Below, one piece after another: positions 381 to 16,427 of a stretch of 64,000 nt of DNA (position 1 is its first letter; each line of letters opens with the position of its first letter). Under the pieces are notes generated by a model that searched no databases, was not told the origin of the DNA, and was given only the letters and a program-made list of their open reading frames with translations. The stretch comes from Alistipes sp. (GTDB taxonomy: Bacteria; Bacteroidota; Bacteroidia; Bacteroidales; Rikenellaceae): NCBI GenBank assembly GCA_017474235.1, contig JAFVIB010000011.1, forward strand, positions 17,185-81,184, in the 5' to 3' direction. The position numbers and the translations under genes are program-made.

Positions 381-402
381 AAAAGGACAGAGGTTGTGGC
401 GA

Positions 403-561: not shown

Positions 562-583
562 AGTAAACTTGACTTTGTGAGTA

Positions 584-801: not shown

Positions 802-833
802 TTTGCATAATATAGAATATTTACCTACCTTTG
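802..833 (+). promoter_or_regulatory. Promoter of the first SusC/SusD cluster
   Basis: TTTG at 802-805 and TACCTTTG at 826-833 are separated by 20 bp, the classic Bacteroidetes -33/-7 arrangement. The predicted start site is near 840, giving a leader of roughly 57 nt before the susC ATG at 897. No regulatory gene (anti-sigma/ECF or hybrid two-component) adjoins the cluster. Confidence 0.75.
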
Positions 834-896
834 TATATTAATTAGGAATTGCAGACGGACACAAAACCTATTTTATAAACTTAAAAAACTAATTGT

Positions 897-3800
897 ATGA
901 AAAAACTGCTACACAACTCAGCAAGATTGCTTCTTGTGATGCTTGCTTGCTGTTTCAGTTTGACCGCCATTGCGCAGAAGAGATCCATACAGGGTACTGT
1001 TGTGGATGAAACCGGCGCTCCAATGATTGGTGCTTCCGTAGTCGTAATGAGTGGCGAGAACATCGTGGGGGGGGGTACAACTACCGATATTTCAGGTAGT
1101 TACACCGTTTCTGTAGAAACCGGTCAATCTCTTGACATATCCTTTATCGGATATAAGTCAGCGAGAGTTGCCATCACAGCACAACAGACTGTCTATAAGA
1201 CCACATTGGTTATGGACAGTGAGGCTGTAGAAGAGGTCGTTGTCGTAGGTTACGGCACCGAGAAGAAGGTAAACCTTACCGGTTCGGTATCTTCAATCTC
1301 TACCGAGGAGTTTAATTCTCGACCAATCACCCAGCTCTCTACCGCATTGCAGGGTATCGCTCCGGGCGTTACAGTAACCACAGCAGGTGGTGCTCCGGGT
1401 GCTGATACAGGTAACATTCAGATTCGCGGTATCGGCTCTTTTGGTGGCTCTGATTGCGCACCACTTATCCTTATCGACGGCGTTGAGGGTGATATGAACT
1501 CCGTTGATGCTTCACAAATCGATCAAATCACAGTACTTAAGGACGCTGCTTCTGCTGCAATCTACGGTTCGCGTGCAGCAAATGGTGTTATCTTGATTAC
1601 AACAAAGCGTGCCGGCAAGGACAAGTTCGGTGTAACTTATCGTGGTTATGTTGGTTGGCAGGAGCCTGTTGTATATCCTGATGTTGTTGGTCCAGAGGAC
1701 TTTATGCGTCTGCAGAGTATTGCTGAGGCAAACGACGGTATCACTAAGCTCACTTACTCTCCTGAGTATATTGAGAACTACCGCAAGAACAACTTCCTTG
1801 ATCCTGATGCATACCCAATCATCGATTGGCAGAAGCGCCTGATGACCGGTAACGGTTTCACTCACAGCCATATTGTAACTATGTCCGCAGGCTCTGAGCG
1901 TATCCGCAACATTTCATCATTCGGTTATCTTGATCAGAACGGTATTATCAAGGATGCATCTTTCAGCCGTTTCAACTTGCGTAACAACCTCGATGTTCAG
2001 CTTCACAAAAAGTTCAAGCTCAGTCTCGACATCGCAGGTACTTACTCAAACCGCGAGATTAACCCTTATCAGAATGGTATCTTCCAGTTTATGAACGCAA
2101 AGGACCCTGTAATGCTTGCACAGTGGTCTGATGGCAGCTACGCTCCGTTCACAGGTGGTACAACAAACCCACTGCCAATGATTGAGACAGGTGTAGGTGG
2201 TAACCGCCACTATCAGAGACTCAACATCAAGGCTGCTGTTGCATTGGAGTACAAGCCTGTTAAGTGGCTCACTCTCGAGGTTAAGGCTGCTCCACAGCTT
2301 TCAGCAACAAAGAACCACACTTTCAAAGATCAGGTTGAGTATCACTCAGATCCATACGGTTCTATCTCTCCTATCACCAATGTTGAGTTCAACTCTTTGG
2401 ATGAGAGCATTGCAACTACATTCAACGGCTACTATCACGGTATGCTGACCTTGGCTCACAGCTTTGGTAAGCATAACCTCAAGCTGCTCCTCGGTGCATC
2501 TTACGAGAATACAGAGTACTCATCACTCTCTGCTTATCGTCAGGATTTTGCATATCCTCAGTATGATGTAATCGACGCAGGTGCTGATAACGAGTTCAAG
2601 CAGAATGGTGGTACTCGCACACAGCTTGCTTTGGCTTCATTCTTCGGTCGTTTCAACTACAACTATGACAACCGTTACCTGTTTGAGGCTAACCTCCGTT
2701 ATGACGGTTCTTCACGCTTCTCTAAGCGCAACCGTTGGGGTCTGTTCCCATCATTCTCTGCAGCTTGGCGTCTGAGCGAGGAGTCATTTATGGATAGCAC
2801 TCGCGATGTACTGACAGAGGCTAAGATTCGTCTCTCTTATGGTACTTTGGGTAACCAGAACATCGGTGGTAACTACCCTACTGCACAGATGCTCTCAATT
2901 TCATCTATTGCAGCTGCCGGCAGCATCTACCCTATCGTTGCACAGACTTCTCTTGCAAATGAGAATATCACTTGGGAGACTACATATATGGCAGATGCCG
3001 GTATCGACTTGACTTTGTGGGAGAAATTCACTTTGACAGCCGACTACTACTACAAGAAGACTGACGGTATCCTTATGAAGCTCGATATCCCTTCTACAAT
3101 CGGTCTTAACGCACCTTATCAGAACGCAGGTGTTGTAACTAACCACGGTTGGGAGGTAGCTTTGGGCTACAACAACCGTTGGGGCGATTGGTCATTCGGC
3201 GTACAGGGCAACATCTCTGATGTAATCAACGAAATTGTCGATATGAAGGGTACTTCAGGTTCAAGCGGCGTTATCCGCAACCAGGAGGGTTCATCTATCA
3301 ACTCTCTCTACTTGCTCAAGAGCCTCGGCATCGTTCAGACACAGGAGCAGGCAGACTGGATTAACGAGAACTGCCCTCAGTATGGTCAGGTAACTCATCC
3401 GGGAGACCTTGTTTATGAGGACTACAACCTCGATAACAAGATTGATGACAACGATAAGCAGATTGTAGGCTCACTTATCCCTCGTTACACTTACGGTCTT
3501 ACACTCAATGTAGGTTGGAAGGGTATCAACTTGAGCGCACAGTTCCAGGGCGTAGGTAAGGCAAACGCTTATATCAGTGGTTACTATACTCAGCCTTGCG
3601 TTAGTGGTGGTACATTCCAGAAGAGCCACATTGACAACTGGACTCCAGAGAATACCGACGCTAAGTATCCTCGTCTCTCTTATCAGGCAGACCTTAACAA
3701 GAAGTCTTCTACATTCTGGATGGCAAACGGTGCATACTGCCGTCTGAAGAACCTTCAGTTGAGCTACACCTTCCCTAAGAAGATAGTAAAGGCTATGAAG

Positions 3801-3980
3801 ATTAAGGGTCTTATGGTTTATGCAAATGCTACAAACCTCTTCACTATCAGTGACTACTATGATGGTTATGACCCTGAGACAGCTTACCAGAGTGGTTCAC
3901 AGGGTGCAACAACCGGTTCTATCGGTAACAACTACCCACTTTGTAGCACATACACATTCGGTGCAGAGATTAAATTCTAA
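897..3980 (+). CDS. SusC/RagA-family TonB-linked outer membrane transporter
   Basis: This is a 1027-aa outer-membrane barrel that imports ligands captured by its SusD partner, powered by TonB. A signal peptide ends at about residue 26 (AIA before Q). A carboxypeptidase-regulatory-like beta domain follows (about 29-110, QGTVVDETGAPMIGASV), then a TonB-box-like EEVVVVGYGT, a plug (about 125-235, with VLKDAASAAIYGSRAANGVI) and the barrel, ending in aromatic FGAEIKF. It lies 14 bp upstream of susD. Codons 57-60 hold a run of nine G (GTG GGG GGG GGT), although glycine is otherwise almost always GGT or GGC here. Slippage in this run would frameshift the gene. The substrate is unknown; the downstream genes are not sugar-degrading enzymes. 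Confidence 0.95.
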   Translation: MKKLLHNSARLLLVMLACCFSLTAIAQKRSIQGTVVDETGAPMIGASVVVMSGENIVGGGTTTDISGSYTVSVETGQSLDISFIGYKSARVAITAQQTVYKTTLVMDSEAVEEVVVVGYGTEKKVNLTGSVSSISTEEFNSRPITQLSTALQGIAPGVTVTTAGGAPGADTGNIQIRGIGSFGGSDCAPLILIDGVEGDMNSVDASQIDQITVLKDAASAAIYGSRAANGVILITTKRAGKDKFGVTYRGYVGWQEPVVYPDVVGPEDFMRLQSIAEANDGITKLTYSPEYIENYRKNNFLDPDAYPIIDWQKRLMTGNGFTHSHIVTMSAGSERIRNISSFGYLDQNGIIKDASFSRFNLRNNLDVQLHKKFKLSLDIAGTYSNREINPYQNGIFQFMNAKDPVMLAQWSDGSYAPFTGGTTNPLPMIETGVGGNRHYQRLNIKAAVALEYKPVKWLTLEVKAAPQLSATKNHTFKDQVEYHSDPYGSISPITNVEFNSLDESIATTFNGYYHGMLTLAHSFGKHNLKLLLGASYENTEYSSLSAYRQDFAYPQYDVIDAGADNEFKQNGGTRTQLALASFFGRFNYNYDNRYLFEANLRYDGSSRFSKRNRWGLFPSFSAAWRLSEESFMDSTRDVLTEAKIRLSYGTLGNQNIGGNYPTAQMLSISSIAAAGSIYPIVAQTSLANENITWETTYMADAGIDLTLWEKFTLTADYYYKKTDGILMKLDIPSTIGLNAPYQNAGVVTNHGWEVALGYNNRWGDWSFGVQGNISDVINEIVDMKGTSGSSGVIRNQEGSSINSLYLLKSLGIVQTQEQADWINENCPQYGQVTHPGDLVYEDYNLDNKIDDNDKQIVGSLIPRYTYGLTLNVGWKGINLSAQFQGVGKANAYISGYYTQPCVSGGTFQKSHIDNWTPENTDAKYPRLSYQADLNKKSSTFWMANGAYCRLKNLQLSYTFPKKIVKAMKIKGLMVYANATNLFTISDYYDGYDPETAYQSGSQGATTGSIGNNYPLCSTYTFGAEIKF
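1067..1075 (+). repeat. G9 homopolymer inside susC
   Basis: Nine consecutive G at codons 57-60 of the SusC gene encode V-G-G-G with GGG codons that the gene otherwise avoids. It is the only G run of this length I noticed in a coding region of the window. Gain or loss of one G would truncate SusC soon after the signal peptide and start of the N-terminal domain. Confidence 0.85.
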
Positions 3981-3994
3981 AACAGATTGCAATT

Positions 3995-5785
3995 ATGAAA
4001 AAGAATATTATAACTTTACTTCTGTCGGTAGTTCTTTTGAGCAGTTGCTCTCTTGATCGTGAGCCGCTTGACGGTCCATCTACCGGTACTTTCCCTGCAA
4101 CCGCAGAAGAGGCTGAGGCAGGTCTGCTTGCCGCTTATAAGAGCCTTTCAAATGATGTACACCAGTACAACCCAGCAGATCGTTGGTACGATCAGCTCTC
4201 TGATATTGGTGCTATGAGAACTACTATGTCAAGCTGGCCTAACTTCGGCTTGTCAACCGTTACCTCAGAACTCTCTCATGTAGAGAAGACATACACTCGT
4301 ATCTATAAGGCTATCGGTCGTGTACACCTTGTACTCGACAAACTCGATAATCTTCGTGGTGTAGTATCTGACGAGCAGTACTATCAGTTCAAGGCTGAGC
4401 TCCTCTGTCTTCGTGCTTATCAGTATGACAAGGGTTGTAAGATTTTTGGTGATATGCCGTGGATTGACCACGCACTCGACCTTGATGACTACGCATACGC
4501 TCGTACACCAAAGGCTGAGGTTATTGCCAATATTCTCAACGATTTGGATGATGAGTTGATAGACAACCTCCCTATTGCTTGGGACCGTGCTACTTGGGGA
4601 ACTTGCCGTATTGGTCGTGTAGCTGCATATGCACTCAAGGCTCGTATCTGTCTTGAGTGGGGTTTCTTCGAGGATGCTGCTAAGTATTCAAAGAAGGCTC
4701 TTGACCTTGCAGCCGGTGTTTATGACCTTACTCCACTGGATTGCACCTACTACCCTACACACGCAGATGGTGAGCCAGATCCAACCCCACTTTTCGGTTA
4801 CGATGCTGAGAGAAACTCTCGTGAGTGGATTTGGGCTATTCAGTTCGACCGTCTTGCTGCAAGTAACACACACCAGGGTGTATATAACCATGCTTCTCGT
4901 GTACACAATGGCTCTGCAGGTGCTGGTCCAGCTATGGCATTTATTGACACCTTCCAGTGTACTGACGGTCTTTCTATTGCTGAGTCTCCACTCTACAATT
5001 GGCAGGACCCTTGGAAGAATCGTGACCCACGCCTCGACCTGTTCTGCTTGCGTTCAGGCGCACGCTCTATGGGCGTTCAGTTCTCAACAGACCCTGCTGA
5101 CAAGACTGTCTTTGATTATAATATAGGTAAGGCAGTGCCTAATGGCGATGTTACAGGTAATAAGAGTGAGTATGGTCCTAACGGCACAAAGGGTCCTGGT
5201 GGCTACTTATGGCGTAAGTTCCTCAATATGGAGTACTATGCAAGCGTTACCGGTAACTCTTATGAGGATGAGTTGGATTTGCCTATTATTCGTCTTGCTG
5301 AGGTGCTTTTGGTTGATGCCGAGGCAAATATCGAGTGGGAGGGTGGTGACCTCTCTCGCGCAAAGGCAAATATCGACCGTATTCGTGCTCGTGTAAATAT
5401 GCCTCCTGTAAAGGCGACCGACCGTGAGGGTCTGCGTTCAGCTCTTCGTTACGAGCGTAAGGTAGAGCTCTGCTGCGAGGGCTTCCGTTGGTTTGACATC
5501 CGTCGTTGGAAGGACTCTACAGGTAAGCCGCTGGTATATAAGGCTATGAATGTTCAGCAGTTTGCACCGGGTTATGGTCGCACAACTTCAAATGCTAAGC
5601 CGACTATCGACGAGAACTGGATTGTCACTTACGACAAGAACAACACCTTTGACGGTAAGGCTTGCAATGCTCGTGTTCACACAACCTTCAAGTTTGTGGA
5701 TAAGGATATGCTTTGGCCATTCCCATATACCGAGATGGTTACCAACCCAATGATTGGTTTGGAGAATAACAACCCTGGTTATTAA
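3995..5785 (+). CDS. SusD/RagB-family surface lipoprotein
   Basis: This 596-aa lipoprotein binds ligand at the cell surface and caps the SusC barrel. The lipobox is LLSSC (Cys18), followed by the SusD-like N-terminal helices (about 25-330, including the ALKARICLEWG helix) and the C-terminal half with RYERKVELCCEGFRWFDIRRW, a hallmark of the family. It starts 14 bp after susC and runs into the next gene 17 bp later, so all three are probably one transcript. The ligand cannot be read from the sequence. Confidence 0.95.
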   Translation: MKKNIITLLLSVVLLSSCSLDREPLDGPSTGTFPATAEEAEAGLLAAYKSLSNDVHQYNPADRWYDQLSDIGAMRTTMSSWPNFGLSTVTSELSHVEKTYTRIYKAIGRVHLVLDKLDNLRGVVSDEQYYQFKAELLCLRAYQYDKGCKIFGDMPWIDHALDLDDYAYARTPKAEVIANILNDLDDELIDNLPIAWDRATWGTCRIGRVAAYALKARICLEWGFFEDAAKYSKKALDLAAGVYDLTPLDCTYYPTHADGEPDPTPLFGYDAERNSREWIWAIQFDRLAASNTHQGVYNHASRVHNGSAGAGPAMAFIDTFQCTDGLSIAESPLYNWQDPWKNRDPRLDLFCLRSGARSMGVQFSTDPADKTVFDYNIGKAVPNGDVTGNKSEYGPNGTKGPGGYLWRKFLNMEYYASVTGNSYEDELDLPIIRLAEVLLVDAEANIEWEGGDLSRAKANIDRIRARVNMPPVKATDREGLRSALRYERKVELCCEGFRWFDIRRWKDSTGKPLVYKAMNVQQFAPGYGRTTSNAKPTIDENWIVTYDKNNTFDGKACNARVHTTFKFVDKDMLWPFPYTEMVTNPMIGLENNNPGY

Positions 5786-5802
5786 TATTAAGAGCGTTCA
5801 CA

Positions 5803-8358
5803 ATGAAAAAGATTTGGAAATATTTAAGCTTCTGCCTGCCTGTTATGGCGTTGGCAGTGGGTTGTACCGAGGCTGACGGCATCTCTGAGTTCCAGCCCGA
5901 TACAAACAAGACCGGCGATGTAACAATCCTTGCCTCTATTGAGAATGCCGACTCTCGTGCATCTTTGGTTGCTACCGGAGAGGCTCGTTGGCAGCCTGAG
6001 GATGGCATTAAGGTTGTTTGCGATGACGGCTCTACAACTATATTTGAGTTGGACGGCACAGGCGAGACTCGTCGTGCGCTGTTCAAGGGCTCTCTGAGCG
6101 GAAACTCTGTTGGAGAGTATGCAATCTACCCTACAACTGCCGATTTTTCAAACAACAGCCTCTCTATCACACTTCCTTCAGTAGTTGAGGCATCGGCAAC
6201 CGGCACTTGTGCCTTTATGGCAGGTGTTATCGACGAGAAGAATGAGGTTGAGTTCAAGCAGCTTACAGCATACGCTACTGTTCAGCTTAACAACATTCCT
6301 GACAAGTCTGTAAAGATTGTTTTCTCTTCAGATAAGAACCTTTCAGGCAATGTTACAGTTACACTTCCTGATGCACTGACTGAGGGTGCAGCAGCAAAGG
6401 CTGGCAATGAGACTGTTACAGTAAACTTTGAGGGCAAAGCACCTTCAATGATCAATGTATTCCTCCCACTTGCTGTTGGCGAGTATTCACACATCACAGC
6501 TACTGCTTACAACGAGAAGGGAAATGTACTTAGCGAGGGTGTTGTTGCATCACTTGTAAGTGCATCACGCGGTCTGCTTCTGAGCTACAATGTTGATATG
6601 CCGGGTGCATCTAAGCCAACACCAATCCCTGGTACTGTAAATGTTGCAGGTATCTACTGGGCACTTGGTAACCTCGAGTATGAGGCTGGCGCAACAGCTA
6701 CTAACGGTTTTGCCGAGGGTTGGAGAATTGCACCAAGTCAGGAGCACCACTTCTATATGGATAAGCCGGGCGATATTAAGGATCTTAAGGATTACAACAA
6801 GGTTGCACACTTCAACTTTGGTGGTATTGCAGATTATGCATCTATCAATGCTGCTTCTGCTGTACACATTGCCGGCAGCCCTGCATTTGACTTCAGCGGT
6901 AAGATGTACTCTGACGCTGCTTGCAAGAACGAGACTACCGACTTCAACGCGGCACAGTTTGGTGATATTGCACACTGGGCATCACGCGGTCAGTTCCGTA
7001 TGCCTACATCAGAGGAGTTTGCAGCTCTCTATGAGAAGGCTTGCTACACTGCTGCTGTCTATAACTCAGTTAACGGTACATACTTCTTCGACCCTGAGAA
7101 TGGCGAGGACCCTGTATATGTAGAGGGTGTTAAGGAGCTTACCGCTGCTGATTTGACAGTAGGTCTGTTCCTCCCAGCTACAGGTCGCTGCTACAACAAC
7201 ACTGAGTATAACATCTATAAGGTTAACGATCAGGGCTTCTACCGTGCATCGACTGTAGATCCTAACTCTCAGGTTGGTAATGGTTACGGTGTTCTCTACC
7301 GTACTCTAACAGGTGGTGCTACGGCTTATGATGAGGCTACTACAGGCAAGCCATTCTTTAACGATGGTCTGCGCGGTAGCGGTAACAACGCCGGTACTTA
7401 CAACTATGGTGCTCTGTCACGCTACTCTATCCGTCCTGTATATGTAAGCGGAAACTTCGCACCTGTTACACCTGCTCCGGACCCAACACCGGACCCTGAT
7501 CCAACTCCGGGTCCTGATACAGATCCTGTTCCAACAACAGGTACTGTAACTGTTGCGGGCATTGAGTGGGCAATCGGTAACCTCCAGTTTGAGGAGGGTG
7601 GTGCTACAGGCGAGGGTTTTGCTACAGGCTGGAGCATCAGTGCAGGTCAGCACTTCCACTTCTATATGGGCAAGAGCGGTAATCAGACAGATCTTCCTGA
7701 GAACTTCTCAAAGATGGCACACTTCAACTTCGGAGGTATTACCAATCCATTTATCAACGATGTTACTCTGTCGGCTTCTATTGCAGGCACAAAGGACATC
7801 AGCGGTAAGATGTACACCGATCAGACCTGCGTTGCCGAGACAACAGATTTTGCTGCCGCTAAGTTTGGAGATATTGCATACTGGGCATCAAAGGGTGCAT
7901 ACCGTATGCCAACTGCAGAAGAGATGCAGAAACTCTATACAGACGCATGCCGTGTTAAGGCTACCTACACTACTGCCGATGGTGCTGAGATAAGTGGTAC
8001 ATACTTCTACGATCCTGCATCAGGAGAGACTCCTGGCGCAGTAGAGGTAGATGCTCCTCGCGTAGTTAAAAATGCTGATATGAAGAAGGGTCTGTTCCTT
8101 CCTTATACAGGTCGTGGACAGAGCGGTAATACATACGCAATCTATGCAGTAAATACTCAGGGTGTATATCGTTCATCTACAACTATCAGCGCATCTACCC
8201 TTGAGCAGACCTACGGTGCTATCTATCGTCCTCATGTTCTTAGCGAGGCTGATGGCAAGCATCCTACAGACTATATCTATACATATTGGGAGGCTAAGAA
8301 TCAGACTGCTTACGGTGTTATGGGTCGCTACGCTATCCGCCCTGTAAAGGTTAAGTAA
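5803..8358 (+). CDS. Lipoprotein: fimbrillin-like domain plus two FISUMP-like domains
   Basis: An 851-aa lipoprotein (lipobox ALAVGC, Cys21). Residues about 40-270 resemble the fimbrillin-like fold (TILASIENADSRASL, then YAIYPT and LPLAVGEY). Two homologous modules follow at about 278-553 and 580-851. Each starts T-V-x-VAGIxWAxGNLxxE, contains GKMYxDxxC, GDIAxWASxGxxRMPTxEE and LFLPxTGR, and ends YxIRPV. This layout resembles the FISUMP (Fibrobacter succinogenes major paralogous, TIGR02145) domain. A Pro/Asp-rich linker (about 554-579) joins them. FISUMP domains are common on Bacteroidetes and Fibrobacter surface proteins, but their activity is unknown. The gene is the third of the SusC/SusD cluster, so a role as an accessory surface ligand binder is an inference. 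Confidence 0.8.
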   Translation: MKKIWKYLSFCLPVMALAVGCTEADGISEFQPDTNKTGDVTILASIENADSRASLVATGEARWQPEDGIKVVCDDGSTTIFELDGTGETRRALFKGSLSGNSVGEYAIYPTTADFSNNSLSITLPSVVEASATGTCAFMAGVIDEKNEVEFKQLTAYATVQLNNIPDKSVKIVFSSDKNLSGNVTVTLPDALTEGAAAKAGNETVTVNFEGKAPSMINVFLPLAVGEYSHITATAYNEKGNVLSEGVVASLVSASRGLLLSYNVDMPGASKPTPIPGTVNVAGIYWALGNLEYEAGATATNGFAEGWRIAPSQEHHFYMDKPGDIKDLKDYNKVAHFNFGGIADYASINAASAVHIAGSPAFDFSGKMYSDAACKNETTDFNAAQFGDIAHWASRGQFRMPTSEEFAALYEKACYTAAVYNSVNGTYFFDPENGEDPVYVEGVKELTAADLTVGLFLPATGRCYNNTEYNIYKVNDQGFYRASTVDPNSQVGNGYGVLYRTLTGGATAYDEATTGKPFFNDGLRGSGNNAGTYNYGALSRYSIRPVYVSGNFAPVTPAPDPTPDPDPTPGPDTDPVPTTGTVTVAGIEWAIGNLQFEEGGATGEGFATGWSISAGQHFHFYMGKSGNQTDLPENFSKMAHFNFGGITNPFINDVTLSASIAGTKDISGKMYTDQTCVAETTDFAAAKFGDIAYWASKGAYRMPTAEEMQKLYTDACRVKATYTTADGAEISGTYFYDPASGETPGAVEVDAPRVVKNADMKKGLFLPYTGRGQSGNTYAIYAVNTQGVYRSSTTISASTLEQTYGAIYRPHVLSEADGKHPTDYIYTYWEAKNQTAYGVMGRYAIRPVKVK

Positions 8359-8378
8359 TATCTAAACTAACTCCATAA

Positions 8379-8411
8379 ACACTCCACGCCCGATTTTCGA
8401 GCGTGGAGTGT
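8379..8411 (+). terminator. Strong intercistronic hairpin
   Basis: ACACTCCACGC at 8379-8389 pairs perfectly with GCGTGGAGTGT at 8401-8411. The loop is 11 nt, and the sequence after it (ATAAACTTTTG) is only weakly T-rich. It lies 20 bp after the FISUMP gene and before the 45-aa peptide gene. It could end most transcripts, protect the upstream mRNA from decay, or give partial read-through to the peptide and downstream genes. Confidence 0.6.
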
Positions 8412-8457
8412 ATAAACTTTTGATAACATAACAAACCTAATTAAAAACTTTAACAAA

Positions 8458-8595
8458 ATGAGAACTTACACAAAACCTACTATCCTCGCTGAGGATGTAA
8501 AAGTAGAGGCTGGTTTTCAGACCTCAACTGTAGAATGGGAACTCGGCGCACCGGGTGGCGAGATTGATGTTAATGATTATGAAATCGAACTCTAA
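8458..8595 (+). CDS. 45-aa acidic peptide
   Basis: An ATG at 8458 opens a 45-codon frame ending in TAA at 8593-8595, preceded by an A-rich stretch (TTTAACAAA) typical of starts in this phylum. The product begins MRTYTKPTIL and is strongly acidic overall (10 Asp/Glu against 3 Lys/Arg). It has a GAPGG motif near residues 30-34 and an acidic end (DYEIEL). It has no signal peptide and no cysteine. It lies 13 bp before the next lipoprotein gene. From memory, short proteins starting M-[KR]-x-Y-x-KP occur next to fimbrillin-type genes in Bacteroidales; I cannot verify membership here. It could be a secreted or modified peptide, a small partner protein or a leader peptide. Confidence 0.6.
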   Translation: MRTYTKPTILAEDVKVEAGFQTSTVEWELGAPGGEIDVNDYEIEL

Positions 8596-8608
8596 AAAAT
8601 GTAGCACT

Positions 8609-10330
8609 ATGAGAAAGTTTATTACCACAATGCTTATCGCAGCGGCTGCATTTACCGCTTGCGTTCAGAACGACGAGGTTGTCGTTCCAAATAACAATGA
8701 CAAAATCACCTTTACCGCTACCGTAACTGCTCCTGAGACCCGTACAGTGCTTGTTGAGGAGGGTGGCAAGTTCCACGCTGAGTGGCAGAATGACGATGTA
8801 ATCGAGGTTTTTGAGGTTACAGATGTAGTACAGAGTGGTACTAAAAAATACCAATCAAATTTAACAACAGTTGTAGTCGATGGAACTAATAGCACTGCAA
8901 ATGTAGAACTGAATGTTTTTGATACTGCTACATCATACTCTTATGTTCTTACCACAACTAATGCCTCTATGAATGGAGGTGCAACATATCTTGGTTTGAC
9001 ACTCCCTTCTGCACAGGCTCCTGCTGCAATGAACACATTTGATGGAGCATCTGATATTATTGTATCAAAGCGTGTTCAGCGTACATCACAGCCTGCTGCT
9101 GGCGAAACTATTTCATTCGACAATATTCGTATCTCTGCTATTGTAAAGGTTACTATCAAGAATCTTGCTCTCGCTGCAGGTGATAAGGTTGAGAGTGTAA
9201 CATTCTCTTGCAATAAGGAGATTGCAGGTAAATTTACAAAGATTTACTTAGATGATATTGAGAACGGTACACCATTTGTTAACAGCTCTGGAGATGGTAC
9301 ATTTGGCAATGTAACCGTTACCCTTCCTGAGGCTCAGTCAGGTGATTTCAGCTACTATATGAATGTATGGCCCGCAACCCTTGAGGCGGGATCGGACTAC
9401 TCTGTAACCGTTATCACAACAAATAGCAAATTCATAAAGAAAGGTACTATCCCTGCAGACAAGCCGCTCACATTTGCAATGGGCGATATCACTACTCTTA
9501 CAGTTAATATGGCAACCGCAGAGGAGGATATTGTTGCAAGTAGCGACTATATAACCATTGCCGGTGTTAAGTGGGCAACAGGTAACTTGTGGTATGACGA
9601 GGATGGTACTACTGAAGATGGTTTTGTAAATGGTTGGTCCATCGCCCCAAATCAGCACTATTGTATTGTAAACTCTACAGATGGTCCTACTACACGCGAT
9701 ATATTCAACTTTGGTGGTATCACAGATCCAATGAGTCACTCTACATGTGTTAATATCACCACAATTCCTGATGAAGGATTCAATATCAGTGGTAAGATGT
9801 TTACAGATGCAACTTGTGCTACAACTACTACAAACTATGCAGAAGCTGTTTATGGAGATATTGCATACTATGCATCAAAGGGTAAGTATCGTATGCCAAC
9901 AGCACAAGAGTTTAAGGATATGATAGCAGCTACCAGCTCAACTCTTGCTACATTTAACGATATACCGGGTGTATATTTCTGGATTCCTGCCGCTGACGAA
10001 GAGCGCACTGTTGCAAACAATTCTACTTCTATAACCTTAACAAAAGATCAGTTAGCTACAGGTCTATTCTTCCCTGCAATTGGTCGTGGATTTAATAAGG
10101 AAGACTGGAGCATTAATGGCGTCGGATCAACATACATGTATCGCGCAGCAGATGTAGAATCTGAAGATAATTGGGGTGATAGTCCAGGGGAAACATGTTA
10201 TGGAGTTATTGCAAATCTCAAGCTTGCTGGATCTACTGACACTGCTGTTAATAAGAAGGATGTACACTATTGGAACAAGGCTATTGGAGCGAAAGCTCGT
10301 CTTCCAATTCGTCCTGTTGTAAATGAGTAA
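8609..10330 (+). CDS. Lipoprotein: fimbrillin-like domain plus one FISUMP-like domain
   Basis: I choose the ATG at 8609 (573 aa) because it gives a lipoprotein signal, MRKFITTMLIAAAAFTAC (Cys18). The frame is open upstream to 8555, but that would add 18 residues ahead of the signal and overlap the peptide gene. Residues about 30-300 look fimbrillin-like (ITFTATVTAPETRTVL, AEWQNDDVIEVFEV). From about 313 a FISUMP-like module follows (YITIAGVKWATGNLWYD, GKMFTDATC, GDIAYYASKGKYRMPTAQEF, ending LPIRPVVNE). It is the one-module version of the gene at 5803-8358 and lies 16 bp upstream of the first metallo-beta-lactamase-fold gene, so the two are probably co-transcribed. Confidence 0.8.
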   Translation: MRKFITTMLIAAAAFTACVQNDEVVVPNNNDKITFTATVTAPETRTVLVEEGGKFHAEWQNDDVIEVFEVTDVVQSGTKKYQSNLTTVVVDGTNSTANVELNVFDTATSYSYVLTTTNASMNGGATYLGLTLPSAQAPAAMNTFDGASDIIVSKRVQRTSQPAAGETISFDNIRISAIVKVTIKNLALAAGDKVESVTFSCNKEIAGKFTKIYLDDIENGTPFVNSSGDGTFGNVTVTLPEAQSGDFSYYMNVWPATLEAGSDYSVTVITTNSKFIKKGTIPADKPLTFAMGDITTLTVNMATAEEDIVASSDYITIAGVKWATGNLWYDEDGTTEDGFVNGWSIAPNQHYCIVNSTDGPTTRDIFNFGGITDPMSHSTCVNITTIPDEGFNISGKMFTDATCATTTTNYAEAVYGDIAYYASKGKYRMPTAQEFKDMIAATSSTLATFNDIPGVYFWIPAADEERTVANNSTSITLTKDQLATGLFFPAIGRGFNKEDWSINGVGSTYMYRAADVESEDNWGDSPGETCYGVIANLKLAGSTDTAVNKKDVHYWNKAIGAKARLPIRPVVNE

Positions 10331-10346
10331 TAACTAATAGTTTCTG

Positions 10347-11552
10347 ATGAGACGAAGTTTTATAATTTTTCTATCGATGTGTCTGGCGGTGATTGTTTTC
10401 ACCGCCGGATGCAACGGTAATACGGCTCGCGTAGGCAGTCCACTCCCTGCGTGGAGCGAGGGTCATCTTGACATTCACACGATAAGCACAGGTCGTGGAG
10501 AGTGTCTATTGGTTATTTTGCCCGACGGCACAACGATAGTAGTTGATGCGGGCGAGTTCAGCCGAGAGAGCAAGAGTTATGGCAATGTTGCACAGCGTCC
10601 TAATGCTCAGACACGCCCGACAAAGGCTTTTGGCGACTATATTCGCCACTTCCTTCCAAAGAGTGATAGTGTTGACTACTTCAACCTCTCGCACTTTCAT
10701 ATGGACCATATGGGTAATATAGAGCCTGAATATACAAAGTCTGCCGAGGGAGATTACATCCTCTCAGGCGTAATGGCTCTATATCATCAAGTACCATTTC
10801 GTGAGGTTATAGACCGTGCATACGGGGCTTATGACTCTTTGGCGGTACAGGCTATGAGCGTAAAGTCGCTTCCTGAGTACAAGAAGTTTATCTCTCATCA
10901 CACCGCTCACGGAACACTCAAGGCTACTCGCTTTGAGCTTGGCGCAGTAAATCAGTTTGCTATGCGCTACAATGCCGAGGCTTATCCAAACCTCACTATC
11001 GAGAATATCTGCTCAAACGGCTATGTTTGGGACAACGGCAAGGCGGTAGATGTCTATGAGAACAATCGCGAAAACATTCGCGAGAATGCGGCAAGTTGCG
11101 GTTTTGTAATCCGCTACGGAGCTTTTGACTTCTTTACTGCCGGCGATATTGGCGACTACTACGACCTTGAGTATCGTGTAGCACTTGCTGCGGGCGATGT
11201 TGATGCTGCAAAGGCAAACCATCACCTCTCTCCGCACTCTAACTGTCAAAAGGCTATGGGAGTTCTCAAGCCCGAGGTGCTTGTAGCGACAAGTTTCTAC
11301 CACCGTGAGATACAGCCCGATCAGAGCAAGTTCGGCTGGATAACCGACGGCGGTTGTCGTCTCTACTGCACAAGCGTAAGCGAGAAGTTGCTCGAGGCTC
11401 AGCCGGAGGTGTACTCTCTATGTAGTGCTACGAGCGGTCACAATGTTATCCGCGTAGCCCCGAATGGCGATTCATACACTGTCTATACCCTTGACGATAG
11501 CGACAGCGAGTATCGCGTAACTAAGATTGACGGACCTTTTACAAGCAAATAA
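10347..11552 (+). CDS. ComEC-like metallo-beta-lactamase-fold lipoprotein 1
   Basis: A 401-aa exported hydrolase candidate. The lipobox is FTAGC (Cys22). The core shows a complete set of metal-site motifs: GRGECLLVILPDGTTIVVDAGE (compare GQGD and LiDaG in the ComEC C-terminal domain), HFHMDH at about residue 115, AGDIGD at about 266 and NHHLSPHSNC at about 291. The two-zinc site is therefore probably intact. ComEC-type domains act on nucleic acids or phosphodiesters; the substrate here is unknown. It ends DGPFTSK, a tail shared by all four paralogs. It is followed after 3 bp by paralog 2, with which it forms one subfamily (the LSPHSNC type). Confidence 0.85.
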   Translation: MRRSFIIFLSMCLAVIVFTAGCNGNTARVGSPLPAWSEGHLDIHTISTGRGECLLVILPDGTTIVVDAGEFSRESKSYGNVAQRPNAQTRPTKAFGDYIRHFLPKSDSVDYFNLSHFHMDHMGNIEPEYTKSAEGDYILSGVMALYHQVPFREVIDRAYGAYDSLAVQAMSVKSLPEYKKFISHHTAHGTLKATRFELGAVNQFAMRYNAEAYPNLTIENICSNGYVWDNGKAVDVYENNRENIRENAASCGFVIRYGAFDFFTAGDIGDYYDLEYRVALAAGDVDAAKANHHLSPHSNCQKAMGVLKPEVLVATSFYHREIQPDQSKFGWITDGGCRLYCTSVSEKLLEAQPEVYSLCSATSGHNVIRVAPNGDSYTVYTLDDSDSEYRVTKIDGPFTSK

Positions 11553-11555
11553 TCT

Positions 11556-12875
11556 ATGAGGCGACTGATATATTGGCTATTACCTCTTACAATCCTACTT
11601 TCCGTATCGTGCGGAGAGCCGGATGTCAAGATGCCGTGGGAGGATGACTTAGGCAAGGGCGAGCAACAGCAGCCCGACAACCCGACGCCCGACAACCCAA
11701 CACCAGACAACCCGACACCCGACAACCCTACACCTCCGACAGAGGGCGTTTACAAGGTTGGCGAGGTGTTACCTCTATGGAGCGAGGGCGAGTTGGATAT
11801 TCACACCATAAGCACAGGTCGTGGCGAGTGTCTGTTGATAATTATGCCCGACGGTACTACTATGGTGGTTGATGCGGGCGAGTTCAGTCGCGAGACATCC
11901 GAGTACAAGAATGTTGCTCAGCGCCCGAATGCACAAACACGCCCTACACAGGTATATGCCGACTATATCAAGCATTTCTTGCCTTCAGGACGCACAATGA
12001 TAGACTATTTCCACCTCTCACACTTCCACATGGACCACATGGGAAACTTGGAGAAGGAGTACTCAAAGTTTGCCGAGGGCAACTATACCCTCGCAGGTAT
12101 TACGGCTCTATATCATCTTCTCCCTTTCCGCGAGGTTATAGACCGCGCATACGGAAAGTATGATGCACTGAAGGTTAATAGCATGAGTGAGGCTGCTCTG
12201 AAGAATTATCGCGTCTTCTTGGATTATCAGGTGGGCAAAGGCAATCTGCGTGCATCGCAATTCCAGTTAGGTGCTGTAAATCAGTTTGCTATGCGCTACA
12301 ATGCCAAAGACTACCCCAACTTCAAAATCGAAAATGTCTGCGCAAACTGCAATATTTGGGAGAACAACAAGGCTGTGGATATATATGCAGGCAAAAGCAA
12401 GGCTGAGAATGCTGCATCTTGCGGTTTTGTTATCCGCTATGGAGATTTCGACTTCCACTCTGCCGGCGACATTGGCGACTACGAGGACCTTGAGTATCGC
12501 GTAGCCAAAGTTGTAGGTCAAGTCGAGGCTGCAAAGGCTCATCACCACCTCTCACCACACTCCAACTGTAAGAAGGCGATGGATGTGCTTAAACCGCAGA
12601 CACTCGTGGCAACAAGTTTCTATGTGCGCGAGATTCAGCCCGACAAGAGCAAGTTTGACTACATAACAGCAGGCGGTTGCGATCTCTTCTGCACATCTGT
12701 CGGCGAGCCTCTGCTACTGCAATATCCTACAGATTACGCAAAGTGCAATGCTACAAGCGGGCATATCGTAATTCGCGTAGCTCCAAATGGCAGCGAATAT
12801 ATGGTTTACACTCTTGACGATAGCGACAATCTATATAAAATAAAACATATTGACGGACCTTATAAATGTAAGTAG
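11556..12875 (+). CDS. ComEC-like metallo-beta-lactamase-fold lipoprotein 2
   Basis: A 439-aa paralog of the preceding gene. The lipobox is LSVSC (Cys19), then an acidic stretch with KMPWEDD, then four perfect PDNPT repeats (residues 40-59) that make a flexible surface tether. The catalytic domain has DGTTMVVDAGE, HFHMDH (about residue 155), SAGDIGD and AHHHLSPHSNC, so all metal ligands appear present. It ends DGPYKCK. It starts 3 bp after paralog 1 and stops 1 bp before the ATG of paralog 3, which points to translational coupling. The long tether is the main difference from paralog 1. Confidence 0.85.
   Translation: MRRLIYWLLPLTILLSVSCGEPDVKMPWEDDLGKGEQQQPDNPTPDNPTPDNPTPDNPTPPTEGVYKVGEVLPLWSEGELDIHTISTGRGECLLIIMPDGTTMVVDAGEFSRETSEYKNVAQRPNAQTRPTQVYADYIKHFLPSGRTMIDYFHLSHFHMDHMGNLEKEYSKFAEGNYTLAGITALYHLLPFREVIDRAYGKYDALKVNSMSEAALKNYRVFLDYQVGKGNLRASQFQLGAVNQFAMRYNAKDYPNFKIENVCANCNIWENNKAVDIYAGKSKAENAASCGFVIRYGDFDFHSAGDIGDYEDLEYRVAKVVGQVEAAKAHHHLSPHSNCKKAMDVLKPQTLVATSFYVREIQPDKSKFDYITAGGCDLFCTSVGEPLLLQYPTDYAKCNATSGHIVIRVAPNGSEYMVYTLDDSDNLYKIKHIDGPYKCK
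11673..11732 (+). repeat. Four tandem 15-bp units encoding PDNPT
   Basis: Four copies of a 15-bp unit (such as CCCGACAACCCGACG) encode PDNPT four times in the linker after the lipidated cysteine. Copies differ only at third positions. Unit gain or loss would keep frame and change tether length. Confidence 0.9.
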
Positions 12876-12876
12876 T

Positions 12877-14133
12877 ATGAAAAAGTTTTGGTTTTTACCT
12901 CTTATCGCCCTATTTGCAATATCTTGTGGCGGAGACAACGAAGAGATGCCTTGGGATGATGATATTAACCCCGACAAGAACGAACAGACAACCGTAGAGA
13001 TTGGTAAGCCTCTGCCGCTTTGGAGCGAGGGTCATCTCGATATTCACTTTATCAACTCCGGTCGTGGCGAGTGTTGCTACTACATTCTGCCCGATGGCAC
13101 AACACTGCTTGTCGATGCCGGCGAGCTGCCACTGAATTATGGCGACGGACCTTGCCCACAGCGTCCAAATTCAGTAATTCGTCCATATGAGACCTATGCA
13201 AAGTATATCAAGCACTTTATGCCTCAGGGCAATAGCGCAATCGACTACTGCGCACCTTCTCACTTCCATATCGACCATATAGGTAGTAAGGATGCTGCAA
13301 CAGAGACCTCTCCTGTTGGTTATCGCAAGTCGGGTCTGCTCGCGCTGTTTGACCTTGTGGCTTACAAACATATCCTCGACAATGCCTATCCGGGATACAA
13401 GGAGGATAGTGTAACGCCTGCACTTGATGGCGAGCTTGCAGAGGACTGGGGCAAGTTCGTAACTTGGGGAGTTAAAGAGGGTAAGTTTACCGGAGCTCGC
13501 TTTACCCCGGGAGAGGAGCAGATTGTGCTGCTGAATAAGAGAGATAGTTACAAAAACTTCAAGGTCTTCAACATCTGCGCAAATGGCTTTGTATGGTCTA
13601 AAAATGGTCTTGCCGGCTCAAAATCGGATAAGGGAAACCCTGCTTGCTGCGGCTTCCATATCACATACGGCAAGTTTGACTATATCGCTTGTGGCGACCT
13701 TACAAGTAGCTCTCAGAACCGTTTTGCAACCTATTTCAAGGATTGTGTCGGCAGCGGTAAGCTTGAGGCTTTCAAGAGTCATCACCACCTCGGAGCAAAC
13801 AGTTGGGGTTCAAAGATGCAGGAGTACGAGTTCAATCCTCGCGTAATTTTGAACTGTAGTATGTATAAAGGTCAGCCAAATGTAGATATGCTCAACAATA
13901 TTCTCAATAATGTTGCCCCATTCCCATTCTGGGTTAAGGATTTCTTTACAACAAGTGCCCACTCTGAGGCTATAGCTGAGAATAGCGCACTCTACAACAA
14001 AGTTACAGGCTACAACGGACATATTGTACTGCGCGTAGCTCCGGGCGGTAGCGAGTTCTATGTCTATATGCTCGACGATACTAACTTTGACTACAATGTA
14101 AAGTCTGTCCACGGACCTTATACATCTAAATAA
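12877..14133 (+). CDS. ComEC-like metallo-beta-lactamase-fold lipoprotein 3
   Basis: I choose the ATG at 12877 (418 aa), one base after the previous stop, because it gives MKKFWFLPLIALFAISC (lipobox Cys17). A longer frame from 12850 would put nine residues ahead of the signal. An acidic tether with EMPWDDD follows the cysteine, as in paralog 2. The core has FINSGRGECCYYILPDGTTLLVDAGE (positions about 60-85), HFHIDH (about 129), ACGDLTS and SHHHLGANSWG. It therefore belongs with paralog 4, which has NSWG where paralogs 1 and 2 have PHSNC. It ends HGPYTSK. The likely role is a surface or periplasmic-face zinc hydrolase of unknown substrate. Confidence 0.85.
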   Translation: MKKFWFLPLIALFAISCGGDNEEMPWDDDINPDKNEQTTVEIGKPLPLWSEGHLDIHFINSGRGECCYYILPDGTTLLVDAGELPLNYGDGPCPQRPNSVIRPYETYAKYIKHFMPQGNSAIDYCAPSHFHIDHIGSKDAATETSPVGYRKSGLLALFDLVAYKHILDNAYPGYKEDSVTPALDGELAEDWGKFVTWGVKEGKFTGARFTPGEEQIVLLNKRDSYKNFKVFNICANGFVWSKNGLAGSKSDKGNPACCGFHITYGKFDYIACGDLTSSSQNRFATYFKDCVGSGKLEAFKSHHHLGANSWGSKMQEYEFNPRVILNCSMYKGQPNVDMLNNILNNVAPFPFWVKDFFTTSAHSEAIAENSALYNKVTGYNGHIVLRVAPGGSEFYVYMLDDTNFDYNVKSVHGPYTSK

Positions 14134-14140
14134 TCCAAAA

Positions 14141-16159
14141 ATGAAAAGATTTATTTACTTCCTCTCTGCTCTGCTGCTGACAGTAGGTTGTGCAGGATAT
14201 GAAGAGGTCGATATTGTTACTGATGCGCCCGAAGCCTTCACTGCCGATATTGAAGAGTCTTGTGTGCGCCTATATATAGATGATAATAAGCTCTATTGGC
14301 ACAATAGCGACGAGATTTCAATCTTTGCAGGCACTACAAAGAACCTCAAATACAAATTTGAGGGCGAGACAGGCAGTCGCACCGGAAAGTTCAGCTGTGT
14401 AACCTCAAATACATCGGGTGGCACTGCTCTTGACTGCAACTATGCCATCTATCCATACTCGGCACTTACAACAATGCTTGCAAGCGGCAATATCGAGTAC
14501 TCGCTCTCATCTTCACAGAAGTATGCAGAGAACTCTTTTGCCCCTAATGCTAATATTATGGTGGCTGCAACTGAGAACAGTGACAATACCCACTTCCAAT
14601 TCAAGAATGTTGTCGGCTATCTGAAGTTGCAATTGTATGGCAACAACACCTCTGTCAAGACAATCACCTTGACGGGCAATAAGAGCGAGAAACTTACAGG
14701 TAATGCCACTATCACAGCCTCTTTTGGCAAAGAGCCGACTTTGACTCTTGATGATAATGCAACAAACAAGGTTACGCTTAACTGCGAGTCGGCTGTAAAG
14801 CTGAGTAGCAACAGCGCGAAACCTACAGAGTTTTGGTTTGCTCTGCCTCCGATAACATTCTCAGAGGGCTTTACCATTACCGTTACAGACTCTGAGGGTA
14901 ACCAATTTAAGAAATCAACCTCTAAGAAGGTTGTAATTGCTCGTAATACCATACTGCCGATGCAGAGTATTGAGGTAGTGACAAAGGCTACAACGGGCTC
15001 TACCCTCCCTGCTTGGTCAGAGGGATATCTCGACATCCACTTTATCAATGCAGGTCGTGGCGAGTGCTGCTTCTACATACTTCCTGACGGTACAACTATG
15101 CTTGTTGATGCAGGCGAAGTAAAGACCAATAACATTAAAGAAGGTAATGAGAATTACCCTGATGACCTGAATGTAGAGCAGAAACCAAATGCAAGTGTAC
15201 GCCCATATATGGTCTATGCAAACTATATCAAGCACTTTATGCCTAACGGTCAGACAGCTATCAACTGGTGCGCACCGTCACACTTCCATATCGACCATAT
15301 CGGAGATCCTAATACTGCAACCGAAAGACACACCGAGGGAGGCTACCGCAAGACTGGTCTTATGGCTCTGTTTGATGAGGTGCCATTCTATCGCGTTATC
15401 GACCGTGCATATCCTGACTATGTAGAGGATGATACAACAGCTCCATTAGAGGGCGGTTTGGCTCAGGATTGGGCAAAGTTTGTCAAGTATCATATTGCAG
15501 AGGGTAATATTGCAGCCGGCTACCGCTTTACCCCGGGTGAGGAGCAGATAACTCTCCGATACAACAAAGCAGCCTATAGCAACTTCCGTATCTTCAACAT
15601 CTGCGCAAACGGTTTTGTGTGGAATAAGAAAAATGGTGCAGAATATTTGGCAGGTAGTAGAGCCAATGAAGGCAATCCTGCCTCATGCGGTTTCCATATC
15701 AGCTACGGAGACTTTGATTATGTTGCTTGCGGTGACCTTACCTCTACTCCGCAGAACTTGGCAGCATATTATGTCCGTGATTTTATTGGCGGAGACAAAC
15801 TCGATGCCTTTAAGACTCACCACCATTTGAGTGGTAATAGTTGGGGTACAAGAACTAAGGAAGTTCACCAGCCACAAGTGATTTTAAGCCATAGCTTCTA
15901 CAATAAGCAGCCTGACACGGGTCTATTAGATATGCTGTTCGGCTATACATGGCAGAAGAATTTCTTTGTAACAAACCTCCACTCTATGTGGAAGAGCAAT
16001 AATGGTACACTGCTGAACGATAGTGAGTTTACTGGCTCTGAGGGTCACATTGTTCTTCGCGTTGCCCCGGGCGGTAAGACATTCTATGTCTATATGCTTG
16101 ACGACACAAACTTTGAGTATAAGATTAAGTCTATTCACGGACCTTACACTTCAAAATAG
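14141..16159 (+). CDS. Lipoprotein fusing a fimbrillin-like domain to a ComEC-like metallo-beta-lactamase domain
   Basis: A 672-aa lipoprotein (MKRFIYFLSALLLTVGC, Cys17). Residues about 25-280 match the fimbrillin-like domain of the FISUMP proteins of this cluster (VRLYIDDNKLYWHNSDEISIF, YAIYPYSAL, WFALPPITF). Residues about 285-672 are the fourth metallo-beta-lactamase copy: GRGECCFYILPDGTTMLVDAGE, HFHIDH (about 380), ACGDLTS, THHHLSGNSWG, ending HGPYTSK. The fusion shows that the FISUMP and hydrolase modules of the cluster sit on the same N-terminal carrier domain. This supports their working in one surface assembly. It is the last gene before a terminator. Confidence 0.85.
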   Translation: MKRFIYFLSALLLTVGCAGYEEVDIVTDAPEAFTADIEESCVRLYIDDNKLYWHNSDEISIFAGTTKNLKYKFEGETGSRTGKFSCVTSNTSGGTALDCNYAIYPYSALTTMLASGNIEYSLSSSQKYAENSFAPNANIMVAATENSDNTHFQFKNVVGYLKLQLYGNNTSVKTITLTGNKSEKLTGNATITASFGKEPTLTLDDNATNKVTLNCESAVKLSSNSAKPTEFWFALPPITFSEGFTITVTDSEGNQFKKSTSKKVVIARNTILPMQSIEVVTKATTGSTLPAWSEGYLDIHFINAGRGECCFYILPDGTTMLVDAGEVKTNNIKEGNENYPDDLNVEQKPNASVRPYMVYANYIKHFMPNGQTAINWCAPSHFHIDHIGDPNTATERHTEGGYRKTGLMALFDEVPFYRVIDRAYPDYVEDDTTAPLEGGLAQDWAKFVKYHIAEGNIAAGYRFTPGEEQITLRYNKAAYSNFRIFNICANGFVWNKKNGAEYLAGSRANEGNPASCGFHISYGDFDYVACGDLTSTPQNLAAYYVRDFIGGDKLDAFKTHHHLSGNSWGTRTKEVHQPQVILSHSFYNKQPDTGLLDMLFGYTWQKNFFVTNLHSMWKSNNGTLLNDSEFTGSEGHIVLRVAPGGKTFYVYMLDDTNFEYKIKSIHGPYTSK

Positions 16160-16180
16160 GCTATTGGTTGATATACTATT

Positions 16181-16213
16181 AAAGGCAGTTAGAATACTAA
16201 CTGCCTTTAATTT
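16181..16213 (+). terminator. Intrinsic terminator of the SusCD/metallo-beta-lactamase cluster
   Basis: AAAGGCAGTTAG at 16181-16192 pairs perfectly with CTAACTGCCTTT at 16197-16208 across an AATA loop, followed by AATTTT. The arm sequence AAAGGCAG/CTGCCTTT is reused in the nested palindrome at 16297-16423. Confidence 0.8.
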
Positions 16214-16296
16214 TGCGCCCTCTGCGCTCGGTTTGGCGTCGGTTATCAAAAGTGCGTAATTAGCCGATGGAAATGCGCCGCTATCACGATAAAATC

Positions 16297-16423: not shown

Positions 16424-16427
16424 AAGA

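Follow-up and report, generated by a model that had tools for sequence, protein, structure and literature searches.

What would a SusC/D pair import when the operon around it encodes no sugar enzyme? SusC/D systems are mostly interpreted as sugar importers, and the question is raised here by an operon of nine genes, all on the + strand (897-16159), in a stretch of 64,000 nucleotides (nt) from Alistipes sp. (assembly GCA_017474235.1, contig JAFVIB010000011.1, positions 17,185 to 81,184), which is referred to as the window. Besides susC and susD, the operon comprises genes for two lipoproteins (FIS1 and FIS2), a 45-residue peptide (pep45) and four lipoproteins of the metallo-beta-lactamase (MBL) fold (L1 to L4), and Pfam matched no carbohydrate-active or other sugar enzyme inside it. 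From sequence comparison, the answer that appears a little more probable than improbable is a surface system for organophosphates, resembling the PUS systems of Flavobacterium, where the MBL proteins would be phosphodiesterases cutting phosphodiesters for import. As such, FIS1, FIS2 and SusD would capture, at the outer membrane, a substrate that contains phosphodiesters, and L1 to L4, as Pce-type dimetal phosphodiesterases of two subfamilies, would cleave it. SusC would take up the cleavage product, energised by TonB, and its use would be completed by phosphatases and GDPDs, along with an organophosphate antiporter, from genes at other places in the genome. We infer catalysis, substrate, transport direction and surface exposure from what is directly observed, namely gene identities, metal motifs, conservation of the operon, FIS-MBL fusions, the GDPD of a sister operon and recurrent phosphoester partners. 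The mechanism probably acts on phosphodiesters, and glycerophosphodiesters, i.e., lipid head groups or glycerol-phosphate polymers, e.g., teichoic acids, are the likeliest class of substrate. The operon and its boundaries are as follows.

802-833, + strand: promoter pattern TTTG-N20-TAnnTTTG, Bacteroidetes-type, pattern only, 63 nt ahead of the susC start codon
897-3980, + strand: susC, SusC/RagA-family TonB-dependent outer-membrane transporter, 1027 residues (TIGR04056, 924 bits)
3995-5785, + strand: susD, SusD/RagB substrate-capture lipoprotein, 596 residues (PF07980, 151 bits)
5803-8358, + strand: FIS1, 851-residue lipoprotein, N-terminally fimbrillin-like, with two FISUMP/Lcl-like domains, labels weak
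8379-8411, + strand: intercistronic hairpin between FIS1 and pep45, z -6.8, a strong hairpin being found in 8 of 10 orthologous loci
8458-8595, + strand: pep45, gene for a 45-residue peptide, conserved in 10 of 10 loci
8609-10330, + strand: FIS2, lipoprotein, N-terminally fimbrillin-like, with one FISUMP-like domain
10347-11552, + strand: L1, MBL-fold lipoprotein with SHFHMDH, GD and HH motifs
11556-12875, + strand: L2, MBL-fold lipoprotein, 65% identical to L1
12877-14133, + strand: L3, MBL-fold lipoprotein of a second subfamily, 36% identical to L1
14141-16159, + strand: L4, lipoprotein fusing an L3-type MBL domain to a fimbrillin-like N-terminal part
16178-16211, + strand: rho-independent-type terminator hairpin with a GGCAGTTAG/CTAACTGCC core, 15-bp stem, -20.1 kcal/mol, z -6.2

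Considering first the MBL proteins, L1 to L4 have in common a domain some 380 residues long, where L4 is 40% identical to L1, and, like both FIS proteins, each starts with a lipobox-type signal peptide as read from the sequence. Single-protein scans against Pfam and NCBIfam (Pfam only for pep45) established SusC and SusD with certainty and left the seven other operon products, of nine, nameless or below cut-off, so that profiles were required; among the window MBLs, L2 alone gave a Pfam match (18 bits, under the cut-off), and PF00753 was matched singly (E<=0.001) by 33 of 70 aligned relatives, L1 not being one of them. With a profile of these 70 members the MBL-fold label is firm. The nearest solved structures are those of Pce/CbpE, the teichoic acid phosphorylcholine esterase of Streptococcus pneumoniae (1wra, E 4.4e-14; 12qj, 7.3e-14; 2bib, 2.8e-13), followed by the MBL domains of competence proteins (9ic4, E 1.2e-11; 30bt, E 3e-10); 1wra aligns to the profile in two stretches only, within which both motif sets lie. 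In phylogenetic trees (FastTree), L1/L2 and L3/L4 form two subfamilies, each with Alistipes orthologues, and the idea of one recent tandem expansion of the four genes was dropped for that reason.

Pce and the competence protein ComEC differ in motif II, which is HxHxDH in the former vs HxDxDH in the latter. According to the accessible part of PMC8579336, an Asp replaces one His of motif II and an Asn the His of motif III in the ComEC domain, which has general phosphodiesterase and nuclease activity, so that both solved neighbours of the MBL family act on phosphodiesters. HxHxDH is present in 122 of 128 full-length members (118 by pattern and four by eye), including each of L1 to L4, and HxDxDH in the six others (at the loci L089, L102, L040, L143, L150, and L151; three-digit L numbers designate loci throughout), with GD..HH in 127 of the 128; this set was obtained from 195 hits, 188 of them full length, by dropping copies with identical last 250 residues. 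In terms of aligned sequence, the window MBLs thus fall on the Pce side for motif II, and share with Pce/CbpE (1wra, 2bib) the aligned HxHxDH, GD, and HH. They differ from it in being lipoproteins, some 400 residues in length and with long additional segments, encoded in multi-copy operons with SusC/D, and since Pfam finds no choline-binding repeats in them, they are not CbpE orthologues. With the C-terminal domain of ComEC they have in common the MBL fold, as its next-best profile relatives; unlike ComEC, they are lipobox proteins for which neither Pfam nor NCBIfam matched a competence membrane domain, and their motif II is not HxDxDH. On the best reading of these comparisons, they are predicted to represent a new phosphodiesterase family.

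The operon is conserved as a unit. A pattern scan with a four-member profile, covering one genome per species (84,980 genomes) and detecting only relatives that retain one of two short peptides, returned 47 loci, the window's own genome possibly being omitted from the set. Among them, the nine Alistipes/Rikenellaceae contigs matching L1 at >=70% identity (70-75%; L046-L054) all carry the order susC-susD-FIS-peptide-FIS-MBL-MBL-MBL, with one additional short FIS-type gene in L051, and their operons consist only of susC, susD, FIS, peptide and MBL genes. Each has exactly three MBL genes, the fourth, L4, being peculiar to the window. L055 (58%) and L056 (56% identical to L1) are short contigs where the operon is not present, and the remaining Alistipes loci returned by the scan have other arrangements. 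Beyond these, the distribution of the MBL family is rare and patchy: it occurs in 42 of 268 genomes of the taxonomic family (E<=0.001) and, in an even draw over the order, in 7 of 393 at E<=1e-20, the window's genome counted, as well as in Dysgonomonadaceae, Prolixibacteraceae, Flavobacteriaceae, Saprospiraceae, Opitutaceae, Altererythrobacter, and Luteimonas. A constant association of MBL with SusC/D was also considered and dropped, as SusC/D is not adjacent in L055 (a short contig), in L093, L095, L066, and L067, or in the Alistipes groups E1 and E2.

The partners of the MBL genes are most telling in a sister operon of Alistipes, arranged as susC-susD-FIS-MBL (L1 type)-MBL (L3 type)-GDPD. 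The GDPD gene follows the MBL genes in all four sister loci (L057, L058, L059, and L099); the complete order is that of L099, the place of susD being overlapped by the picked open reading frame (ORF) in L057 and L059 and the upstream part of L058 being unresolved. The assignment relies on PF03009 for the L059 copy and on position in G013, G016, and G153. L099 has the same FIS and MBL types as the window, its SusC shares 73% and its SusD 72% identity with the window protein, vs 22-33% in the same comparison for SusC outside the window/sister group, and the sister MBLs branch beside the window clades in both subfamilies (FastTree, local support 99).

Phosphoester genes accompany the MBL genes elsewhere. 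L133 reads susC-susD-MBL-TIG/NHL lipoprotein-GlpT/PgtP-like MFS transporter-GDPD, the transporter resembling the GlpT structure 1pw4 (E 3.5e-48) with NCBIfam hits below cut-off. The order in L063, L078, and L079 is MBL-FAD oxidoreductase-MBL-sn-glycerol-1-phosphate (G1P) dehydrogenase-like-GlpT/PgtP-like MFS-HAD-IIA phosphatase, and in L063 the genes from MBL to HAD-IIA abut or overlap; its G1P-dehydrogenase-like protein resembles the structure 9h4x (E 4.4e-33), as does the one encoded with five MBLs in L076 (E 1.8e-42). A GDPD gene lies immediately 5' of an MBL gene in L074 (Pfam) and L088 (by similarity, E 1e-11). L071 and L073 show TonB receptor-MBL-PhoD, with a protein between MBL and PhoD in L073 that looks metallophosphoesterase-like by eye and has no Pfam match, and L082 shows TonB receptor-PhoD-MBL, its PhoD being 63% identical to that of L071. 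In L101 and L163 (MBL-susD-susC), an OPA gene stands nearby on the opposite strand. In the window's genome, GDPD gave 8 hits; there are also two strong Fe-ADH_2 (G1P-dehydrogenase-like) genes and OPA genes, one of the latter lying 3 kb from a cluster of susC, susD and GDPD (L185) in which sigma- and FecR-like genes were recognised by eye.

Three SusC/D loci, L155, L162, and L185, carry GDPD, and over the stretch that was read none of them encodes an MBL of this family. An organophosphate antiporter and a G1P-dehydrogenase-like gene are found in addition in L155 and L162 (the GDPD piece of L162 being recognised by eye), and since L155 is arranged as GDPD-G1P-dehydrogenase-like-OPA-HAD-IIA-lipoprotein-susC-susD, this set can form a SusC/D locus alone. 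From their genes, all three are putative glycerophosphodiester utilisation loci. They resemble the window in their SusC/D and carry glycerophosphodiester enzymes; unlike in the sister operon, the SusC proteins are distant, that of L155 being 29% and that of L185 26% identical to the window's. A further observation concerns a second Alistipes MBL set, upstream of which lies a fusion of calcineurin phosphoesterase and PQQ propeller (L093 4933-6771), with equivalents in L095, L066, and L070. The fusion gene is adjacent to the MBL genes in L070 and two genes away in L093, which has three of them; L093 belongs to the window's own genome and was not used as evidence because a Glu/Leu/Phe/Val-dehydrogenase gene intervenes.

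To count such associations, the loci were sorted by hand into 28 lineages, related contigs together and L092 omitted, and the 240 proteins encoded in same-strand runs reaching at most five genes away from an MBL gene, with gaps no longer than 350 nt, were clustered without preselecting families. Sixteen neighbour clusters were common to at least two lineages. Neighbours included SusD in 14 lineages, SusC in 11, FIS-type proteins in seven, FecR-like proteins in five (the L071 member being FecR by Pfam), FAD oxidoreductases in four and GDPD in three, or four with L133, where a 434-nt gap to the antiporter gene exceeded the rule. An OPA-type MFS transporter, a proteobacterial TonB receptor, PhoD and a calcineurin-type phosphoesterase were each found in two. 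A small gene 5' of susC occurs in three lineages (sigma-factor-like in L089 by eye), and one family is common to E2 and J (ribokinase-like in L068 by eye). The rule missed the G1P-dehydrogenase-like gene of Ereboglobus, as a spurious ORF split the run. As far as the 16 shared clusters could be named, no nuclease was among them. For GDPD, a same-strand gene within four genes of an MBL gene was found in 3 of 23 lineages (G013, G327, and G663) vs 0.22 expected (P 0.0011), the lineages being collapsed from 31 genomes that do not include that of L088. Separately, PF12831-type FAD oxidoreductases adjoin MBLs in L062, L063, L068, L076, L079, and L086 (by Pfam for L062, L068, and L076).

Several observations weigh against an organophosphate system. 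The GDPD statistic lends support and nothing firmer because the family was picked after inspecting the neighbours; moreover, gene numbers were estimated from genome size and other families left uncorrected for. Apart from the MBL genes, the window operon contains no phosphoester gene, and beside the MBL genes susD is missing in 14 and susC in 17 of the 28 lineages, some contigs being cut. Four non-phosphoester families, GH92 included, are shared solely by two Prolixibacteraceae; GH92 lies beside MBL in L074 and L077, and GDSL/sialidase-like genes occur in Prolixibacteraceae. Other neighbours are NagA-like in L134 and L135 and nucleoside-hydrolase- and GH43-like in L136 (all by eye), and the partners in L068 are an FAD oxidoreductase, a Na symporter and an alcohol (zinc) dehydrogenase. 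The scores of Pce and ComEC in the profile comparison are close. Finally, the G1P-dehydrogenase-like protein of L063 is below the NCBIfam cut-off (NF002022, 151 bits vs 413) and genes of this type adjoin AraD-like ones (by eye) in L153, L157, and L158, so that the label may mean AraM-like.

In a narrower form of the organophosphate reading, which we regard as doubtful, the MBLs would be a new group of surface phosphodiesterases for sn-glycerol-1-phosphate compounds and the Alistipes operon the specialised surface half of a pathway. The compounds would come from the lipoteichoic acid of Gram-positive neighbours, from phosphatidylglycerol-derived groups or even from the head groups of archaeal lipids in herbivore or termite guts. 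In Bacillus subtilis, lipoteichoic acid is a polymer of sn-glycerol-1-phosphate and wall teichoic acid one of sn-glycerol-3-phosphate (PMC7086022). Lipoteichoic acid is a candidate because of that polymer and of the G1P-dehydrogenase-like gene in relatives. If this form were true, the pathway would be seen in full in the relatives that carry the dehydrogenase-like, antiporter and HAD-IIA genes.

The FIS proteins fit a partnership with the MBLs. FIS and MBL domains are fused in proteins of 950-970 residues from rumen and other Bacteroidales (L062, L063, L075, L081, L084, L086, and L087, the first two being contigs of one assembly), which suggests that the two domains act together and provides a functional hint for FISUMP-like domains as partners of an esterase-like domain. 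By its place in the operon, FIS1 occupies the position of a surface binding protein, a putative role. The label itself is weak on sequence grounds: the best domain match of FIS1, Lcl_C, scores 17.5 bits, under the Pfam cut-off, neither window protein matches the FISUMP models PF09603 and TIGR02145, and PF09603 was matched by one of 16 chosen FIS-type proteins (E 5.8e-4). An earlier account of this DNA, the preliminary description, had called both proteins fimbrillin/FISUMP lipoproteins, of which the lipoprotein part holds and the FISUMP part is weak. Its other structural claims agree with what is found, i.e., susC, susD, two lipoproteins, a 45-residue gene and four MBL-fold lipoproteins on one strand with small gaps, no sugar enzymes among them, a promoter at 802-833, where the pattern lies, and a terminator at 16181-16213, where the 15-bp hairpin lies. 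SusC/D and MBL do form one cluster, in the same order in the nine contigs, and adjoin in the lineages counted above; the outcome that would have refuted that description, homologous loci in which the two never adjoin, did not occur, but MBL loci without SusC/D exist as well.

Among the alternatives, the one that survives best, fairly unlikely as it seems, is a glycan system, where the MBLs would strip a phosphodiester-linked substituent (phosphocholine, phosphoethanolamine, or phosphoglycerol) and the polysaccharide would be imported for carbon. Pce acts in this way on teichoic acid, glycosidase genes accompany MBL in L074 and L077, and a cluster with GH16, GH3, and GH30 lies divergently upstream of the window operon. 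The window operon itself, however, contains no glycosidase and the nine orthologous operons are confined to their five gene types; besides, the genes upstream of L049 and L050 (with L108) are unlike the window's glycan cluster, a thin test since no more than two of the nine had readable genes on that side. Less likely again, the MBLs may act on another bond, e.g., in a lactone, a thioester or a lipid amide, the phosphoester neighbours being incidental. In its favour, enzymes of the MBL superfamily catalyse diverse reactions, a linked SusD is missing from half of the lineages, and in some the neighbours are unrelated. Against it, the proteins nearest by profile are phosphoesterases, and phosphoesterases of three families turn up repeatedly in lineages that are separate. 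Lastly, scavenging of nucleic acid or nucleotides, with the MBLs as exported ComEC-like nucleases and SusC/D importing nucleotides, appears distinctly unlikely: ComEC as second-best solved relative, the nuclease activity of its domain, the six HxDxDH members and the nucleoside-hydrolase-like neighbour of L136 speak for it, whereas HxHxDH prevails, the window's four included, and GDPD and PhoD recur among nameable shared clusters where no nuclease does. The ComEC nuclease parallel drawn in the preliminary description is not supported; from the cargo it proposed, namely nucleic acid, nucleotides or another phosphodiester, the last agrees with the GDPD, PhoD, and antiporter genes linked in relatives, and nucleic acid is a weaker candidate.

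Three features were absent from that description, namely the hairpin at 8379-8411, the multi-copy family of pep45 and the fusion of a fimbrillin-like part with the MBL domain in L4. Intergenic gaps in the operon are 1-17 nt, the one exception being the 99-nt gap that separates FIS1 from pep45, where the sequence folds at -23.7 kcal/mol, none of 200 shuffles being equally stable. The strong hairpins stand at the equivalent site in the window, L046-L048, and L051-L054, with partly different letters, and are missing from L049 and L050. For seven of the 13 consensus pairs, some sequence has both sides changed with pairing kept; five of them lie in the 11-pair outer stem, three coming from L051 and two from the window, i.e., few independent events, and two in the poorly paired inner part, and the window sequence disrupts one consensus pair. 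Because the hairpin is not followed by a proper T run, a stabilising or processing element is likelier than a full terminator, and as such it would set unequal expression of the two halves of the operon. Rfam gave no match at gathering score in 1-18000 of the window.

The peptide pep45, present in all ten orthologous loci, conserves YxxPxLxxxxVKxExGFAxS and, at the C-terminus, TPGGxIxxNxYxxEL. Its profile matches 35 of 61 related genomes at a loose E<=0.1, with up to 19 matches per genome, and delineates in Alistipes-type genomes a multi-copy family of about 34-56 residues with the motif YxxP....V..E.GFA.S and an acidic end, with copies, e.g., at the following positions.

L154 11329-11475: pep45-family copy
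L172 2054-2182 and 3861-3998: two pep45-family copies
L049 15385-15552: pep45-family copy

For 34 of 43 distinct peptides, a same-strand ORF starts -30 to 400 nt downstream, and a loose pattern finds a lipobox-like signal in 33 of these 34 vs a background of 344 of 1267. The proteins encoded 3' are mostly fimbrillin-like by eye, the peptide gene often lying 10-30 nt upstream. Considering the nine peptides with no qualifying ORF, four (L046, L048, L053, and L054) precede a FIS2 with an earlier start call and for five none was found. In L049, L050, and L051, the end of a FIS-type protein resembles the C-terminus of the peptide. As a guess, the family may be a translational leader or a partner of fimbrillin-type lipoproteins; no description of it was found in the literature search.

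As for the boundaries, the pattern TTTG-N18-22-TAnnTTTG has nine occurrences on the + strand of the 64-kb window; a similar pattern lies 5' of susC in L053 and L048 and none in L049 and L057, L050 being left out of this comparison as its susC start was called too late. The starts of FIS2 and L3 were placed 3' of the longest ORF starts (8555 and 12850). The cluster divergent from the operon and upstream of it (L009 375-17082) comprises susC-susD, a DUF5121/5125 protein, GH16, GH3, GH30, and CotH, and looks like a conventional, ordinary glycan locus for beta-glucan use. Downstream, on the - strand (17609-25641), are a second susC (22378-25641) and susD (20735-22354), followed by a 1033-residue protein (17609-20710, - strand) with no Pfam match.

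With respect to known systems, the claim in the preliminary description that no described system has this set was too strong as regards the kind of system. In Flavobacterium, PUS are SusC/D systems for organic phosphorus, with co-located phosphomonoesterases, phosphodiesterases and inner-membrane transporters, and are induced by low phosphate (PMC8115612, in the sections available). Like the PusCD of Flavobacterium johnsoniae, the window has a SusC/SusD pair, and lipoproteins occur in the PUS clusters as they do here. In PUS, phosphoesterases linked to the pair replace carbohydrate-active enzymes; the window cluster has no match to a carbohydrate-active enzyme, its MBLs are predicted phosphodiesterases, and GDPD is absent there and present in the sister operon. 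PUS also have inner-membrane organophosphate transporters (PMC8115612, same sections). Their enzymes are PhoA, PF00149 and others, with no MBL-fold family named in those sections. The words 'metallo' and 'GDPD' have 0 occurrences in the main text of that paper, which names pf13653, and the same sections on PUS mention neither FIS-type proteins nor a peptide gene or hairpin like those of the window. By analogy, the window operon would work PUS-like with a different enzyme family. The domain pf13653 we take to be GDPD-like. In the literature searched, no description of a SusC/D system with MBL phosphodiesterase-like proteins was found.

The locus and its relatives thus offer a testable SusC/D case centred on a phosphodiesterase-like family, and its setting, i.e., bacteria of the herbivore gut, lies beyond that of soil flavobacteria starved of phosphate. 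Should the cargo indeed consist of teichoic acids or lipid head groups, gut Bacteroidota would feed on parts of the envelopes of other microbes.

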